From contig JBGPLH010000050.1 in NCBI GenBank assembly GCA_041486365.1, positions 1 to 13,758 of the forward strand: 13,758 bases of DNA. The letters run 5' to 3'. Positions 1-6,737 of the stretch are shown piece by piece. How positions within the stretch are numbered: the stretch's first letter is position 1; every line of letters begins with the position of its first letter. The DNA comes from JBGPLH01 sp041486365 [NCBI: Thermodesulfobacteriota bacterium]. GTDB taxonomy: Bacteria; JAUYMQ01. The notes beneath the pieces were generated by a model. That model did no database searches. It was given only the letters and a program-made list of their open reading frames with translations, and was not told the origin of the DNA. The translations under genes and the position numbers were made by a program.

Positions 1-792
1 CATTCCAACCGCACCATCGCGGGAATCCTCGCGGAGGCCGCCGGGGGCGCCGGCGTTCCCGCCGACGCCATCCAGTTCGTTCCCTGGACCGACCGCGCCG
101 CGGTGCCCCCCCTCCTCAGGCTCGACCGTCACATCGATCTCGTGATCCCCCGGGGCGGCGAGGAACTCGTGCGCATGGTGACGGAGACGGCCACGATCCC
201 GGTGATCCAGCACTACAAGGGTGTCTGCCACGTCTTCGTCGACAGGGACGCCGATCTCGAGATGGCCGAGCGGATCTGCTTCAACGCGAAGGTGCAGCGC
301 CCCGGCGTGTGCAACGCCATGGAGACGATGCTGGTGCACGCCGACGTGGCCGAGAAGTTCCTGCCCGGGATGATCCGGAAGTTCCGGGAGGCGGGCGTCG
401 AGATCCGCGGCTGCGAGGAGACCCGGGCCATCGTGCCCGACGCGATCCCGGCGGCGGAGGAGGACTGGAACGCGGAGTACCTGGATCTCGTCCTCGCGGT
501 GCGGGTGGTGCCGGGCCTCGACGCGGCGATCGTCCACATCGCCACCCACGGGTCGGGCCTCTCCGACGCAATCGTGACCGAGAACCTCCGCGCGGTGCGC
601 CGCTTCACGGCGGAGGTCGACTCCTCGGTCGTACTGGTGAACGCTTCGACCCGGCTGAACGACGGCTTCGAGTTCGGGTTCGGCGCCGAGATGGGGATCT
701 CCACCTCCAAGCTCCACGCCCGCGGGCCCATGGGGCTGGAGGAGCTCACGACCTACAAGTACGTCGTGCTCGGCGACGGGCAGATCCGGTAA
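1..792 (+). CDS. proA: Gamma-glutamyl phosphate reductase (glutamate-5-semialdehyde dehydrogenase), 5' truncated by the window
   Basis: ProA reduces gamma-glutamyl phosphate to glutamate-5-semialdehyde with NADPH, the second step of proline synthesis from glutamate, in the cytoplasm. The frame is open from base 1, so the gene enters from outside; 263 residues are visible. The family is about 415 residues long, so roughly the first 150 are missing. The visible part holds the catalytic cysteine in the PGVCNAMET motif (codon at 310), the [10 protein letters not shown] segment and the family-typical ending with [18 protein letters not shown] and a final GQIR. A GTG at 103 could be taken as a start, but the upstream codons are clearly ProA sequence, so it is internal. 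The TAA stop shares one base with the nadD ATG (TAATG), which indicates an operon with nadD and rsfS. Identification is secure from the motifs. Confidence 0.95.
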
Positions 793-1493
793 TGACCGCG
801 GCGCCGCGCCCCGCCGGGCGCGCTCCCGCCCGGGTCGGGATCCTCGGGGGTACCTTCGACCCGGTCCACCTGGGCCACCTGCGCATGGCCGAGTGCCTGC
901 GCGAGACGTTCTCCCTCGATCGTCTGCTCTTCATCCCCGCCGCGATGCCTCCTCACAAGCCCGGCCGGAGGATCACGGCCGGCGAGATCCGCCTGGCGAT
1001 GATCCGCGCGGCCATCGCGGATCATGGCGCCTTCGAGGCCTGCGACCTGGAGATGGTCCGGGGCGGCCCCTCTTATTCCGTGGAGACGCTCGAGGCCCTG
1101 CGGGAACGCTTCGGGCCGAGGGCGGCACTTCACTTCGCGATGGGGAGCGATCAGTTCGCCGAGATCGAGACGTGGAAGGAGTGGAGGCGGATCTTCGCGC
1201 TCGCGCACGTGGTGGTCGTCGCGCGTCCGCGGAAGACGTCGGGTGCGCCCGAGCGGGCGCTTCCCGTTGAGGCGGAAGGGTCCTTCTGCTATCATCCGAC
1301 GGATGATTCGTTCCGCCACGACTCCGGAATGAAGGTCTTCTTCCGGGACGTGGGCGCGCTCCCGATCTCATCGACCGCGATCCGGGCTCTGGCGCGCGAG
1401 GGGCGTTCGATCCGCTACCTGGTCCCGGAAGGCGTCCGGGAGCTCATCACGCGGCACGGCCTGTACTCCGGGCCGGAGTCCGGAGCGGAATGA
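792..1493 (+). CDS. nadD: Nicotinate-nucleotide adenylyltransferase
   Basis: NadD transfers AMP from ATP to nicotinate mononucleotide, giving deamido-NAD in de novo and salvage NAD synthesis; it is cytoplasmic. The 233-residue product is within the normal family size. The nucleotidyltransferase signature GGTFDPVHLGH lies at residues 19-29 and supplies the HxGH catalytic motif. The second signature, ISSTAIR, lies at residues 192-198 and is followed by the usual RYLVPEGV ending. The frame is open upstream to 309, but that part is only an out-of-frame reading of proA. The ATG at 792, overlapping the proA stop, places the first motif at the expected distance from the N terminus. No strong Shine-Dalgarno is visible, so translational coupling to proA is likely. 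The stop overlaps the rsfS start as ATGA. An extra 12 or so Pro/Ala/Arg-rich residues precede the fold. Confidence 0.95.
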   Translation: MTAAPRPAGRAPARVGILGGTFDPVHLGHLRMAECLRETFSLDRLLFIPAAMPPHKPGRRITAGEIRLAMIRAAIADHGAFEACDLEMVRGGPSYSVETLEALRERFGPRAALHFAMGSDQFAEIETWKEWRRIFALAHVVVVARPRKTSGAPERALPVEAEGSFCYHPTDDSFRHDSGMKVFFRDVGALPISSTAIRALAREGRSIRYLVPEGVRELITRHGLYSGPESGAE

Positions 1494-1921
1494 TCAAGAA
1501 GACGAGCCCCGATCCCAAGCCCGACGGTCTATCCCCCGGCGAGAAATCCCGCATAGCGGTCCTCGCCGCCCTCGACAAGAAGGCCGACCGGCCGGTCCTC
1601 CTCGACGTGAAGACCCTTTCCTCCTTCACCGACTACTTCCTGATCTGCAGTGGCCGATCCGACCGACAGGTGAAGGCCATCGCCGACGCCGTCGTGGAAT
1701 CTCTGAAGCGCATCGGACGTCCGCCCCTCGGCGTGGAAGGCCACACCGAGGGGCGCTGGGTCCTGATCGACTGCGCCGACGTGATCGTGCACGTCTTCCA
1801 CGAGCCGGTCCGTGAGTTCTACAATCTCGAGCGGCTCTGGCACAACGCGCCGCGCGTCAGCCTCGCCCGGTGGGAGGAAGAGGCAAAGCTTCCTCCCTCG
1901 GAGCGCGCGCCCGGCGCCTGA
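1490..1921 (+). CDS. rsfS: Ribosomal silencing factor RsfS (YbeB/Iojap family)
   Basis: RsfS binds ribosomal protein uL14 on the 50S subunit and blocks joining with 30S, lowering translation in starvation or stationary phase. The 143-residue product carries the family core: DYFLICSGRSDRQVKAIAD near residues 44-62, then VEGHTEGRWVLIDCADVIVHVF and the REFYNLERLW block. The length is slightly above the usual 105-130 residues because of an N-terminal charged extension of about 20 residues. The ATG at 1490 overlaps the nadD stop by four bases (ATGA), and a GGAG lies a few bases upstream, so this start is well supported. nadD-rsfS adjacency is a widespread conserved pair. A 50-base gap separates it from the comF-type gene. 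Confidence 0.95.
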   Translation: MIKKTSPDPKPDGLSPGEKSRIAVLAALDKKADRPVLLDVKTLSSFTDYFLICSGRSDRQVKAIADAVVESLKRIGRPPLGVEGHTEGRWVLIDCADVIVHVFHEPVREFYNLERLWHNAPRVSLARWEEEAKLPPSERAPGA

Positions 1922-1971
1922 GCGCTTCCTGTCACCTCGTTCCTCCCTCTCCCGGGAATGCCGGACGGTTC

Positions 1972-2874
1972 ATGCGGCTGCCCCGGATCGGTTCCATCCT
2001 CGATCTGCTGATCGACCTCGCCCTGCCATCCGCCTGTCCCGCCTGCTGCGCGGCGCTCTGCGCCGGCCCGACGCGGTTCTGCTCCGACTGCCTGGCCGCG
2101 ATGGCTCCTCTCGCTCCTCCCTGGTGCCCCCGGTGCGGCGAGCCCTTCGCCGCCGCCGCGGGGAATCATCCCTGCGGGCGCTGCGCCGCGCGCCCGCCGC
2201 CCTTCGGCGCGGTGCGGGCGGCGGGACGATACGAGGGGATCCTCCTGGAATCGATCCACCGGCTCAAGTTCGCGGGAGACCTGGTCCAGGCCCCGGCCCT
2301 CGCGGCGCTACTCGTCCGAGCGGTGCGCGCGCTGCACGCGGACACCGTGAACGAGGGGGCCCGCACGATCGATCCCTCTCCGCTGCACCTCGCGCTCGAC
2401 GACCGGCCCGGACCCGACCTGCTGATCCCCGTGCCCCTTCACCCGCGGCGGCTTCGTGAGCGGGGCTTCAACCAGGCGCACGTCATCGCGGCGGAGGCGC
2501 TGCGCGCGGGGATCCTCGCGCCCCGGACGCGGCTTGACCCCGCCGCGCTCGGCCGCGCGCGCGAAACGCCCCCGCAGACGAGGCTTTCCCGCGCGGAGCG
2601 GCTCGTGAACCTCCGGGGCGCCTTCGAGGCGAGGCATGATCGGGTGAAGGGAAGGACGGTGCTGCTGGTGGATGACGTGATGACGACGGGGGCGACGCTC
2701 GAGGCCTGCGCGCGTGCTCTCATCCGCGCGGGGGCGCGCCGCGTGGACGCCGTGGCCGTCGCGCGGGTCGGTGGGGGAACGGCGGTGGCCCTCCGATCAC
2801 GGGACGCGCCTTACGTCCCGCCGTCGTCTTTACGGTCGAGGCCCGCGGCCCGCTCGAGGCGACGCACACGGTGA
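1972..2874 (+). CDS. ComF family phosphoribosyltransferase-like protein
   Basis: ComF-type proteins combine an N-terminal zinc-binding region with a type I phosphoribosyltransferase domain. Family members are linked to DNA uptake (ComFC, GntX), but the exact reaction is generally unknown. Cysteines at residues 22, 25, 37, 40, 52, 55, 68 and 71 form four CxxC pairs, enough for a zinc ribbon. The PRPP-binding loop, preceded by hydrophobic residues, reads DDVMTTG at residues 234-240. LIPVPLHPRRLRERGFNQ, the family signature, lies between these regions. I chose the ATG at 1972 because the hydrophobic helix and first CxxC follow at the usual distance. An ATG at 1870 is in frame but would overlap rsfS. 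The last 30 or so residues are Arg/Ser/Pro-rich and overlap the end of lpxD on the other strand, so they may be a non-conserved tail. No other competence gene is nearby. Confidence 0.85.
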   Translation: MRLPRIGSILDLLIDLALPSACPACCAALCAGPTRFCSDCLAAMAPLAPPWCPRCGEPFAAAAGNHPCGRCAARPPPFGAVRAAGRYEGILLESIHRLKFAGDLVQAPALAALLVRAVRALHADTVNEGARTIDPSPLHLALDDRPGPDLLIPVPLHPRRLRERGFNQAHVIAAEALRAGILAPRTRLDPAALGRARETPPQTRLSRAERLVNLRGAFEARHDRVKGRTVLLVDDVMTTGATLEACARALIRAGARRVDAVAVARVGGGTAVALRSRDAPYVPPSSLRSRPAARSRRRTR

Positions 2875-3842
2875 AGCAGCTCGGGCAGGCGCTCCAGCGC
2901 AATCACCGCCCGCCGCCACCGGGCGATGGGGAACGCGGGCGCCCCGGCCACGGTCTCGCCCGGCGCCACGTCGCCCGCGACGGCGCCGCGGGAGGCGACG
3001 CGCGCGCCGTCGCCGATGGACTGGTGGCCCGCCGCCCCGGATTGTCCGCCCATGAGCACGCCCCGCCCGAGCTTCGTGCTCCCCGACAGGCCGCTCTGGG
3101 AGGCGATGATCGAGTAGTCCCCCACGTCGCAGTTGTGGGCGATCATGACGAGGTTGTCGATCTTCACGCCGCGCCCGATCCGGGTCACGCCGGTGGTCGC
3201 CCGGTCCACCGTCGAGAGCGCGCCGATCTCCACGTCGTCCTCGATCACCACGGTCCCCACCTGGGGGATCTTCTCGGGCAGGCCTCGCTCGCTCGGCGTG
3301 TAGCCGAAGCCGTCGGCGCCCACCACGACCCCGTCGTGCAGGATCACGCGGCTGCCCACGCGGGCCCGGGCGCGCAGCACGACATGGCTCCCGATAACGC
3401 AGTCCTCCCCGACGCGAACGCCCTCGGCGATCAGGGCGAAGGCCCGCACCTCCGTGCGCGCGCCGATCGCGGCGCCCTCCTCGATCACCACGAGTGGGCC
3501 TACACTCGCCGAGGGATCGACGCGGGCGGAGGGATCGACGACGGCGGTTGGATGGATTCCGGACGGGGCTTTCGTCGGAGGATGGAAGATCGCCAGGACG
3601 CGGGCGAAGGCGAGCTGGGGAAGCTTCGTGCGAAGGGCGGGCTTGCCGTGGGACGGGGCGCCGGGGGGAAGGATCACGGCGGCGGCCGCGCTGGCGGGCA
3701 ACTCCCCCGCTCGACGGGCGTTCACGGCGAAGGTGATCGCACCCGCGCCGGCGTCCTCGATGGACGCGGCGGCGGTGATCTCGACCTCGCCGTCCCCCTC
3801 CAGCTCGCAGCCGAGCGATCGGGCGAGCGCTTCGAGCTTCAT
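2811..3842 (-). CDS. lpxD: UDP-3-O-(3-hydroxyacyl)glucosamine N-acyltransferase
   Basis: LpxD adds the N-linked 3-hydroxyacyl chain from acyl carrier protein to UDP-3-O-acylglucosamine, the third step of lipid A synthesis on the cytoplasmic side. The 343-residue length is standard. Residues 1-95 or so are the uridine-binding domain (starting MKLEALARSLG). From about residue 98 the protein shows the hexapeptide repeats of a left-handed beta helix, with DGFGY at 177-181 and the probable catalytic histidine H236 in MIAHNCDVG. A charged C-terminal helix ends the protein. It lies 38 bases after the reductase fusion on the same strand, so cotranscription is likely. The usual bamA, skp, fabZ and lpxA neighbours are absent, so this is a stand-alone copy here; whether another copy exists cannot be seen. 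It implies an LPS-bearing outer membrane. Its 3' end overlaps the end of the comF-type gene by 64 bases. Confidence 0.95.
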   Translation of the reverse strand: MKLEALARSLGCELEGDGEVEITAAASIEDAGAGAITFAVNARRAGELPASAAAAVILPPGAPSHGKPALRTKLPQLAFARVLAIFHPPTKAPSGIHPTAVVDPSARVDPSASVGPLVVIEEGAAIGARTEVRAFALIAEGVRVGEDCVIGSHVVLRARARVGSRVILHDGVVVGADGFGYTPSERGLPEKIPQVGTVVIEDDVEIGALSTVDRATTGVTRIGRGVKIDNLVMIAHNCDVGDYSIIASQSGLSGSTKLGRGVLMGGQSGAAGHQSIGDGARVASRGAVAGDVAPGETVAGAPAFPIARWRRAVIALERLPELLHRVRRLERAAGLDRKDDGGT

Positions 3843-3880: not shown

Positions 3881-5104
3881 TCACCCGTGGTGCTCCGCCA
3901 GCCAGCGCTCGGCATCGATCGCGGCCATGCAGCCGCTTCCGGCCGCCGTGACGGCCTGCCGGTAACGGGCGTCCATCGCGTCGCCGCAGGCGAACACCCC
4001 CTCGATGTTCGTGTCCGTGGTGCCCGGCTTCACCCGGAGGTAGCCCACCTCGTCCATGTCGAGCACCCCCTCGAAGATCCGCGTGTTGGGCTGATGCCCG
4101 ATGGCGACGAAGAGTCCTTGCGCCGCGTGCTCCGAGAGTTCCCCCGTCTTCACGTTCCGGATCTTGACCCCGGTCACGCCCCCCTCGGGGGTACCGAGGA
4201 TCCCCTCCACCGCGCTGTCCCACAGGAAGGCGATCTTCTCGTTCTTGAAGGCGCGCTCCTGCATGATCTTGCTCGCGCGAAGGGTGTCGCGCCGGTGGAC
4301 CACCGTGACCTTCGTGGCGAACTTCGTGAGGAAGAGCGCCTCCTCCATCGCGGTGTCGCCCCCGCCCACGATGAAGACTTCCTGGCCGCGAAAGAAGAAG
4401 CCGTCGCAGGTCGCGCAGGCCGATACTCCGTGCCCCATGAGCCGCTTCTCGCTCTCGATACCGAGGAGCTTGGCCGAGGCGCCGGAGGCCACGATCACCG
4501 CGTCGGCCGTGATGGCCTCACCCTCGCCCAGGTTCACCGTGAAGGGACGCCGCGAAAAGTCGACCCGGGTCACGTCGCCCGGGAGGAACTTCGTGCCGAA
4601 GCGGGTCGCCTGCTTCCGGAAGAGATCCATCATCTCCGGCCCCTGCACGCCGTCGGGAAAACCGGGGTAGTTCTCCACGTCCGTGGTGATCGTGAGCTGC
4701 CCGCCGGGCTGCCCGCCCTCGATCACGAGCGGCGCGAGATCGGCGCGGGCCGCGTAGATGGCCGCCGTGAGCCCGGCGGCCCCCGACCCGAGGATCACGA
4801 CCTTGTGGTGCTCCCTGCGCTCCCCCTTCTTCCCGAGGCCGAGCATCGGATCGAGCCTGCCCTCCACGTCGAGCGCGTGCAGCTCGTCGTAGCCTCCGAC
4901 GTGCACACCGTCGATGAAGATCTGCGGGATCGTTTTGCGTCCGGACCGGCGGATCATCTCGTCGCCCTTGTCGGGCAGATCGTGGATGTTGATCTCCTCC
5001 CAGGTGACGCCCTTCGAGGCGAGCAGGTGCTTGGCGTTGGCGCAGTAGGGGCACCCGTGACCCATGTACATTTCAATGCGAGGCATCGGTTTCGATCCAT
5101 TCAT
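3881..5104 (-). CDS. Glutaredoxin-thioredoxin reductase fusion protein
   Basis: This 407-residue protein joins two redox modules. Residues 7-90 or so are a glutaredoxin fold with the CPYC active site (18-21), the cis-proline TIPQ (58-61) and the GGYDEL glutathione-site motif (70-75). After a short charged linker ([10 protein letters not shown]), residues 101-407 are a complete low-molecular-weight thioredoxin reductase: FAD motif GSGAAG (106-111), redox disulfide CATC (230-233) followed by DG, NADPH motif GGGDTA (247-252), HRRD (270-273) and the C-terminal ACGDAMD FAD motif. It presumably uses NADPH to reduce thioredoxin and/or its own glutaredoxin domain. ATG codons at 5104 and 5086 are both possible starts; neither has a strong Shine-Dalgarno, and 5086 gives a more typical glutaredoxin N terminus. 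The frame stays open up to 5899, but that part is not reductase-like and lies over another gene. Confidence 0.93.
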
Positions 5105-5277: not shown

Positions 5278-6348
5278 TCAGGCCGGCTCGAAGAACTTCT
5301 GCAGCGGCCCGGGCAGCGTCGCGGGATCCGGCAGGTCCTCCGCGGGCTTCAGGGGCACGGAGTTGAAGGTGTTCCAGAAGAGGACCGGCCCCGGAAGCTG
5401 CCCCGCGGCCCGGAGTGCCAGCACCGCCGCCAGGGCCTTTCCCGTGTAGGTCGTCTCGAGCGCAATCCCGGTGGCGGACCTGAAGAGGGCCACGGCGCGC
5501 TCCGCGTCCGGCGTGGGATGGCCGTAGCCCGGCCCGAGCCACTCCCGCCGGAGATCGAGCCGCGCCGGATCGGCCCGGACGCCGGGCACGTCCGGATCGT
5601 GCTTCCGGAGAAAGTCGAGCGTCCGGTCGGCGAGCCCCCTGACCCGCTCCGGGGTGATCCGAAGGAGATCGTTCACCACGACTCCCCGGACGCGCGTCCG
5701 GAGCCCCGTGAGCGCGAGCCCCGCGAGAAGCCCCGCCGCTGTCCCCATCGACCCGACCGCCACCGCGATCGACAAAGGCTCCGGCAGCTCGCCCGCGCGG
5801 ACCTGGGCCTCCAGCTCGAGCGCCGCCTCGACAAATCCGACGCACCCGAGGGGTGTGGAGCCTCCCGGCATCACGAGGCAGACGCGCCTCCCCGGCCACC
5901 CCGAGAGCAGCAGCCGCCGCGCGCCCGCGAGGGCCGCTCCGCGAGGCGATCGCGCCACCTCGATCCGCACCCCGGCGTCGACGTTGCGCCGCAACATCTC
6001 GAGCACATGGGGCGTCCGCGGCTCCTCCACGGCGACCAGCCGGACACCGAGGCCGCTGCCACGCCCGCAGAGCGCCACGGCGAGCGCGTGATGCGATCCG
6101 ATGCCGCCGAAGGTGACGATCGTGCCGGCGCCGCGCGCGACCGCGTCGCCGAGGATGAACTCGAGCTTTCGCGGCTTGTTGCCGCCGTAGATCGGACCAC
6201 TTCGATCGTCTCGCTTGATCCAGAGATCGGGCCCGACCCGCGCGATCGGCTCCACCCCCGTGGGCCGCACGGTGAGCGGGATCCGCGGGAGGCGGCCGGA
6301 GAGGCGCGGGTATCGCTGGAAGAGATGGAGCGGCGTATCGGCCGTCAC
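5278..6348 (-). CDS. PLP-dependent enzyme, D-cysteine desulfhydrase/ACC deaminase family (divergent)
   Basis: The product is a 356-residue fold-type II PLP enzyme. Known relatives convert D-cysteine to pyruvate, H2S and ammonia, or deaminate aminocyclopropane carboxylate. The PLP lysine is K58 in [11 protein letters not shown]. The catalytic serine site is GSHH at 84-87, where relatives usually have QSN followed by H or Q. The phosphate-binding loop is [13 protein letters not shown], and Y301 sits in YTGK, the desulfhydrase-like version. The C-terminal HTGG loop of relatives reads NTFNS here, so the substrate may differ. I chose GTG 6348: it overlaps the stop of the upstream gene as GTGA and puts the fold at the normal N-terminal length. 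The frame is open to 6483, but that part lies over the upstream gene. No Shine-Dalgarno is seen, so coupling to the upstream gene is likely. Family assignment is firm; substrate is not. Confidence 0.85.
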
Positions 6349-6737
6349 GGATACCAGCCGGTGAGGAAACCGTTGGTGAACATGAGCGCGACGGGCTGCG
6401 TGTTCTCGTCGTAGCGCCAGATCTCGGTCTGATCCCGCGTGAGGTGCAGCACCTCGTCGGGCTCGCCCCAGGCCACGCGGCATTTCTCCCGGTTCCAGCC
6501 CCTCACGACGCGGCCGGCGCGGAGCGCCACCACATCCCGGGGCGGCAGGGCCGGGTGCTCACGGATGTAGATCTCGATCTGGGAATCGAGGCGGGACTTC
6601 CAGATGTCGCCGGCGCTGTTGCGGATGGTGTCGGCGAGGAAGAGAACGAGCGCCGCGGCCATGGTGAACAGGAGAATCCGGAGGATCGGGATCCGTCCGA
6701 GGAGAATGCGGGCCTGGCGGGCGGCAGAACCTTGCAT
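6345..6737 (-). CDS. Small membrane-anchored protein with BamE/SmpA-like C-terminal motif
   Basis: The product has 130 residues. A basic N terminus precedes one hydrophobic segment at about residues 16-35, which suggests a single membrane anchor with the rest outside the cytoplasm; there is no lipobox cysteine. The C-terminal half has a W/C-V-x-WGEPDEV ... EIWRYDE ... [13 protein letters not shown] pattern. This resembles the short SmpA/OmlA (BamE-type) domain, where a G-x-P turn is followed by W-x-Y and an F-x-N/D-G strand. That resemblance is inferred from pattern only. The ATG at 6737 is the first in frame and lacks a clear Shine-Dalgarno. A promoter is seen about 90 bases upstream. The stop overlaps the PLP gene start, so the two are translated together. 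I cannot name a function; the pattern of Trp, Tyr and Gly and the GC-rich codon use make it a real gene. Confidence 0.8.

Follow-up and report, generated by a model that had tools for sequence, protein, structure and literature searches.

The window analysed here, a stretch of 13,758 nucleotides, carries on its minus strand a grx-trxB fusion gene (3881..5104), identified by translation and profile matches. Its stop-free frame encodes 407 amino acids from the first ATG (5104) and contains the motifs CPYC, TIPQ, GGYDEL, GSGAAG, CATC and GGGDTA. The original prediction of one continuous frame with an intact glutaredoxin (Grx) and an intact thioredoxin reductase (TrxB) is thus confirmed, both halves passing their NCBIfam cut-offs. 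Translation probably starts at the second ATG (base 5086, residue 7), giving a protein of 401 amino acids, because this codon lies 11 residues ahead of the CxxC, as in several relatives when their nearest ATG is taken as the start.

The marks of Grx3-class glutaredoxins are a CPYC dithiol, a TVP-type cis-proline loop and GGx[DE]. Residues 8–88 (4841..5083, minus strand) form such a domain: CPYC lies at residues 18–21 (5042..5053, minus strand), TIPQ and GGYD are present, and the domain scores 102.1 bits against TIGR02181 (cut-off 90) and matches PF00462 at E 6e-19. It falls below the stricter GrxC model NF007923 (104 versus a cut-off of 129). A short linker (residues 89–97; 4814..4840, minus strand), delimited by low model confidence and by the spacing in 39 fusions, leads to a low-Mr thioredoxin reductase domain (residues 98–405; 3890..4813, minus strand). 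This domain scores 393.5 bits against TIGR01292 (cut-off 343) and holds the Rossmann motifs GSGAAG and GGGDTA together with the CATC redox disulfide (residues 230–233; 4406..4417, minus strand). An AlphaFold2 model built from 45 aligned sequences consists of two confident domains (mean pLDDT 89, pTM 0.72), with a mean of 66 for residues 91–100. The reductase domain superimposes on the bacterial thioredoxin reductase (TrxR) 5uth with a VIA Z-score of 40.1 and an rmsd of 2.5 over 302 aligned residues; in the Foldseek and VIA searches with the whole protein, the matches were taken up by this domain.

The third-position GC content ranges from 0.84 to 0.98 along the frame in 50-codon steps and is even across the linker. 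An in-frame ATG at residue 87 and a GTG at residue 103 lie in the linker region, neither preceded by any of the Shine-Dalgarno-like words searched. Linker-region ATGs occur in 11 of the 39 fusions at varying positions, two of them (L092 and L148) with a Shine-Dalgarno-like word, and free TrxR may therefore arise as a minor product from an internal start. Between positions 3700 and 5400 of the window, no sigma-70 promoter-like or terminator-like sites were found. Adjoining the fusion on the same strand (5278–6483) is a gene for a PALP-family protein of the D-cysteine desulfhydrase or cysteate sulfo-lyase kind, which stays under every NCBIfam cut-off. Genes of the nadD, rsfS and comF families, recognized by family matches, occupy 738..2874 on the plus strand. 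No gshA was identified within the window.

Among known proteins, the nearest architecture is that of AhpF, which the original prediction did not mention. AhpF likewise joins an N-terminal CxxC Trx-fold through a short linker to a low-Mr TrxR-like domain with a CxxC, in the same domain order. The window protein aligns end to end with residues 122–515 of E. coli AhpF at 26% identity, placing CPYC over CHNC and CATC over CPHC, and AhpF chains (4xvg, 4o5q and 1hyu) were the sole ones to align over both domains among the 50 matches shown. AhpF differs in having an extra N-terminal part and in carrying CHNC and CPHC instead of CPYC and CATC. The fusion reaches 205.2 bits against the AhpF model TIGR03140, far from the cut-off of 502.9; E. 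coli AhpF scores 796.8. Passages of one report describe AhpF as serving AhpC (PMC8945050).

Animal thioredoxin-glutathione reductases (TGRs) of flatworms and mammals resemble the fusion in carrying an N-terminal Grx on an NADPH thioredoxin reductase. In flatworms, TGR is the one enzyme for the thioredoxin (Trx) and glutathione (GSH) systems, and TGRs and filarial Grx-TrxR fusions alike contain the mammalian-type reductase, as parts of PMC8914392 state; a section of PMC6155587 describes TGR as built on a high-Mr reductase whose redox centre is C-terminal. In contrast, the reductase half of the fusion is of the low-Mr TIGR01292 type and its last residues lack cysteine, which places it outside the high-Mr class and bears out the predicted distinction from animal TGR. 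Judged from these sequences, the resemblance would be convergent, because the reductase of TGR is high-Mr and that of the fusion low-Mr. A low-Mr TrxR is also joined to a redoxin in NTRC and in the TrxR-Trx of M. leprae, where the redoxin is a C-terminal thioredoxin. The domain order sets the fusion apart from these, as anticipated: its redoxin is an N-terminal glutaredoxin, and the reductase domain extends to residue 402–405 of 407. By score, each half is an ordinary GrxC (TIGR02181) or TrxB (TIGR01292), and the difference from the free proteins lies in the single chain. Among the papers listed from the open-access full-text literature, from which subscription journals are mostly absent, we recognized none that describes a glutaredoxin on a low-Mr TrxR.

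The fusion recurs well beyond the window. Of 595 stretches from a genome scan with the window protein, the 80 best loci included only one, in a metagenome-assembled genome (MAG; L001), at which Grx was encoded with TrxR. We describe two phyla: a first, to which this MAG belongs (52 genomes), and a second, drawn around a MAG named Deltaproteobacteria (L032; NCBI: Myxococcota; 377 genomes). In the first phylum, 14 of 52 genomes have the fusion, 13 at full length and one (G067) broken off at a contig end, and in two more (G056 and G074) a separate grx immediately precedes trxB. In the second phylum, matches at E up to 1e-135 occur in at least 29 of the 377 genomes and span both domains in 28; these counts are lower bounds, with four candidates scored per genome and in-frame neighbours alone picked up. 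Twenty-four of the 28 coupled loci are uninterrupted, so that at least 24 of 377 genomes are in the fused state, and four (G437, G208, G359 and G185) have one stop between the genes. This domain order is shared by other lineages: 38 genomes are fused, and six in all have adjacent separate genes with grx first.

A further Grx-TrxR fusion lies on a plasmid of Ilyobacter polytropus (Fusobacteriota). Seventy-eight plasmid records cover at least 80% of the query, and among the four examined the fusion was present in Ilyobacter alone; this plasmid was also the only one with the Grx match under a trxB among 40 of 234 records from a search with the Grx half. Apparent fusions on Arthrobacter and Cytobacillus plasmids were rejected as neighbouring genes read through, and a Salipiger plasmid has an unfused trxB-trxA-osmC-grxC run. 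Four of 165 phage records cover at least 80% of the query, at 26–33% identity; three were examined, of which two have a separate trxB frame and one an AhpF-sized frame. Separately, the Microcystis phage MaAM05 (MW495066.1, 31728–32642) encodes a trxB that shares about 70% identity with the reductase domain; its match starts at residue 97 and hence leaves out the Grx.

Both active sites are conserved across the 39 fusions compared, namely the window, 13 from the first phylum, 24 from the second and Ilyobacter. The Grx CxxC is found in all 39 (30 CPYC, 5 CPFC, 2 CSYC, 1 CAYC and 1 CPHC), as are the [TS]xP loop and GGx[DE], leaving the glutathione-site motifs unbroken, and CATCDG is invariant in the reductase. 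GGx[DE] and the FAD motif are 36–47 residues apart, with a median of 37. We conclude that the fusion is a real single protein, that it is recurrent, and that it appears to be a novel form among redoxin-reductase fusions.

To place the window, we compared trees of its reductase half. In a tree of coupled sequences, this half clusters with the second phylum (SH-aLRT 96). Neighbours of the fusion in the window also recur near it in that phylum: proA, nadD, rsfS and comF in G222, and nadD, rsfS and comF in G129. A 73-row TrxR tree, which holds unfused TrxBs of many phyla and leaves out the fusions of the second phylum, did not resolve the position of the window, and a comparison of Lon did not place it either. 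The fused label takes six changes on this tree, at least four of them forced by well-supported branches; among the 46 coupled rows, the fused or separate state likewise takes six changes, at least four forced, and neither tree separates gains from losses. Grx distances correlate with TrxR distances across the 46 rows (Mantel r 0.69, with 0 of 2000 permutations as high) and inside the first phylum (r 0.73, 0 of 2000); in the second phylum alone the correlation is weak (r 0.30, 4 of 2000). Because distances correlate and state changes recur on the trees, grx and trxB have travelled together for a long time, the intervening stop being gained or lost repeatedly.

In the second phylum, the surroundings of the fusion point to glutathione. 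At 20 of the 28 coupled loci a same-strand gshA is found upstream, its end 355–4221 bases ahead of the TrxR domain. It adjoins the fusion in four of these (G395, G392, G314 and G431); in the other 16, a response-regulator gene and an uncharacterised gene lie between. No gshA is near the fusion in G232 and G185 (9 kb read), and at six loci (G208, G405, G115, G411, G384 and G359) less than 4 kb upstream is readable. For G314, 3.25 kb was read, and under a fixed 4.3 kb rule the gshA count becomes 19 of 21. Of ten gshA products tested whole, nine exceed the TIGR01436 cut-off and one (G355) stays under it. In the first phylum, none of the seven loci readable far enough, out of 11, has gshA near the fusion. 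Two other genes accompany the second-phylum loci. At 18 of the 28, an upstream gene of the same orientation encodes a conserved protein of about 520–560 amino acids (L174:6477–8150, minus strand; L175:3090–4655, plus strand), two examples of which have no Pfam match at E 1e-5. A PAS/HisKA/response-regulator hybrid protein is encoded downstream in 24 of 28 (L174:3800–4858, minus strand; L175:5989–7065, plus strand), and its position may reflect linked regulation.

Sixteen of the 52 first-phylum genomes have a Grx3 above the cut-off. In every one of them this Grx3 is the copy tied to trxB, fused in 14 and adjacent in 2, with no other Grx3 there; four more genomes have weaker Grx-like matches below the cut-off. 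Ten of the 14 fused genomes show no further TrxB match better than E 1e-8; G030, G033, G035 and G036 have one. Thioredoxin (trxA) is above its cut-off in all 14. With trxA present and no other TrxB seen, the fused enzyme should reduce Trx too in those ten genomes. All 14 fused genomes likewise match a glutathione-synthetase-type family, either PF02955 with at least 100 bits or PF03917. PF03917 (GSH_synth_ATP), which we take to be the eukaryotic-type glutathione synthetase family, occurs in 39 of the 52 genomes and in 0 of 14 control genomes (for example G045:C162:38262–39587, in L207), and is not special to fused ones. PF04107 is present in 48 of 52 and is alone weakly informative: among five genomes subtyped, two (G045 and G056) exceed the cut-off for plant-type gshA and G055 stays under it, and G035 and G030 score better for EgtA, below the cut-off. 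A glutathione-independent Grx was at first favoured, PF02955 being missing from the G045 clade; this reading was dropped on finding PF03917 in the six fused genomes of the clade and gshA beside the second-phylum fusions. The notion of a fusion standing apart from glutathione is therefore not supported, given the synthetase-type matches, the gshA neighbourhood (six of the 28 loci being unreadable) and the intact glutathione-site motifs.

The original prediction further held that glutathione reductase (Gor) may not be needed, which the genomes support in part. Gor was called by the NF004776 cut-off among the best 20–25 candidates per genome, in MAGs that are incomplete. On this measure, 31 of the 38 fused genomes in the two phyla gave no Gor and seven have it. 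All seven are among the 24 fused genomes of the second phylum; none of the 14 in the first has it, against three of 52 first-phylum genomes overall (G037, G041 and G056). Replacement of Gor by the fusion is therefore not general. Nor is the absence of Gor special to the fusion, because 27 of 42 other second-phylum genomes likewise gave none (15 have it). These 42 comprise 41 without a match in the fusion search (four candidates scored per genome) and G198, whose contig begins at TrxR, and may still contain a coupled Grx. Five of the six genomes with separate grx and trxB have Gor, and the contrast with the fused ones (7 of 38; Fisher p 0.004) is a hint, with only four independent pairs on supported branches, too few for a sign test to reach significance. 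We rejected Gor loss as a strict partner of fusion: the raw association fails after tree pairing, and it is biased by in-frame-only pick-up, candidate limits and MAG gaps.

We consider it rather probable, from sequence comparison, that the fusion is a bifunctional reductase which draws on NADPH to supply both thioredoxin and glutaredoxin; it would be a low-Mr counterpart of animal TGR and work with glutathione. Electrons would pass from NADPH via FAD to the CATC disulfide, and from there to free thioredoxin by the ordinary route. A second route would lead from CATC to the CPYC disulfide of the tethered Grx, probably that of the other subunit, much as AhpF passes electrons from its TrxR-like part to its N-terminal Trx-fold. 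Once reduced, the Grx would act on disulfides in proteins and on mixed disulfides with glutathione; where Gor is missing, it could also turn GSSG back into GSH. We infer every one of these electron-transfer steps; observed are the fusion, the conservation of both active sites, the gshA link in one phylum and, in the other, many genomes with a sole TrxB and a sole Grx3. That the Grx is reduced by its own TrxR is plausible, given that Gor was not found in most fused genomes.

The strongest competitor, which we regard as unlikely, is that the fusion merely fixes co-expression or stoichiometry: the Grx would be reduced by free GSH and the TrxR would act on Trx, with no electrons passing between domains. 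The six genomes with adjacent separate genes suggest that coupling is possible at the operon level, the canonical GSH-site motifs are intact and gshA is nearby, and a review characterizes low-Mr TrxR, in the portion consulted (PMC6155587), as highly specific for its cognate substrate. However, with Gor not found in most fused genomes, this reading does not account for how GSH stays reduced, the inter-domain spacing is conserved, and the AhpF geometry can carry electrons, as excerpts of PMC8945050 indicate. We give even less weight to an AhpF-like donor, in which the Grx domain would not be a general Grx but an arm dedicated to passing electrons on to one fixed partner, be it a peroxiredoxin or, for instance, ribonucleotide reductase (RNR). 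Such an improbable role would draw on the domain order and end-to-end alignment shared with AhpF, on a Grx fused to Facklamia NrdB that serves RNR (according to parts of PMC6187632) and on a peroxiredoxin-like gene about 5 kb from the fusion on the Ilyobacter plasmid; yet the protein scores far below the AhpF and above the Grx3 cut-off, no peroxiredoxin or RNR family was found among the seven window proteins scanned, and the fusion adjoins the gshA region in the second phylum.

That the fusion is a meaningless chance event or assembly join is hardly credible. In-frame stops part the two genes in four relatives, and single-base changes can flip the state, but 38 fused genomes in two phyla and Ilyobacter already refute an assembly artefact, the motifs are intact in every fusion, and a frameshift or join at the linker is ruled out by these relatives and by the even base composition across it.

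Returning to the bifunctional reductase, its wider implication is more tentative: a thioredoxin-glutathione reductase might have arisen in bacteria on a low-Mr TrxB, convergently with animals, which in one phylum sits beside gshA, serves both Trx and GSH/Grx, and spares Gor in many lineages. If this is true, a low-Mr TrxR, a type described as thioredoxin-specific, can power a tethered glutaredoxin, which could explain how glutathione-making bacteria cope without glutathione reductase. Neighbouring grx and trxB genes that have fused and come apart time and again would then be a natural experiment in domain coupling, for which the fused, adjacent and gor-bearing relatives are a ready comparison set.
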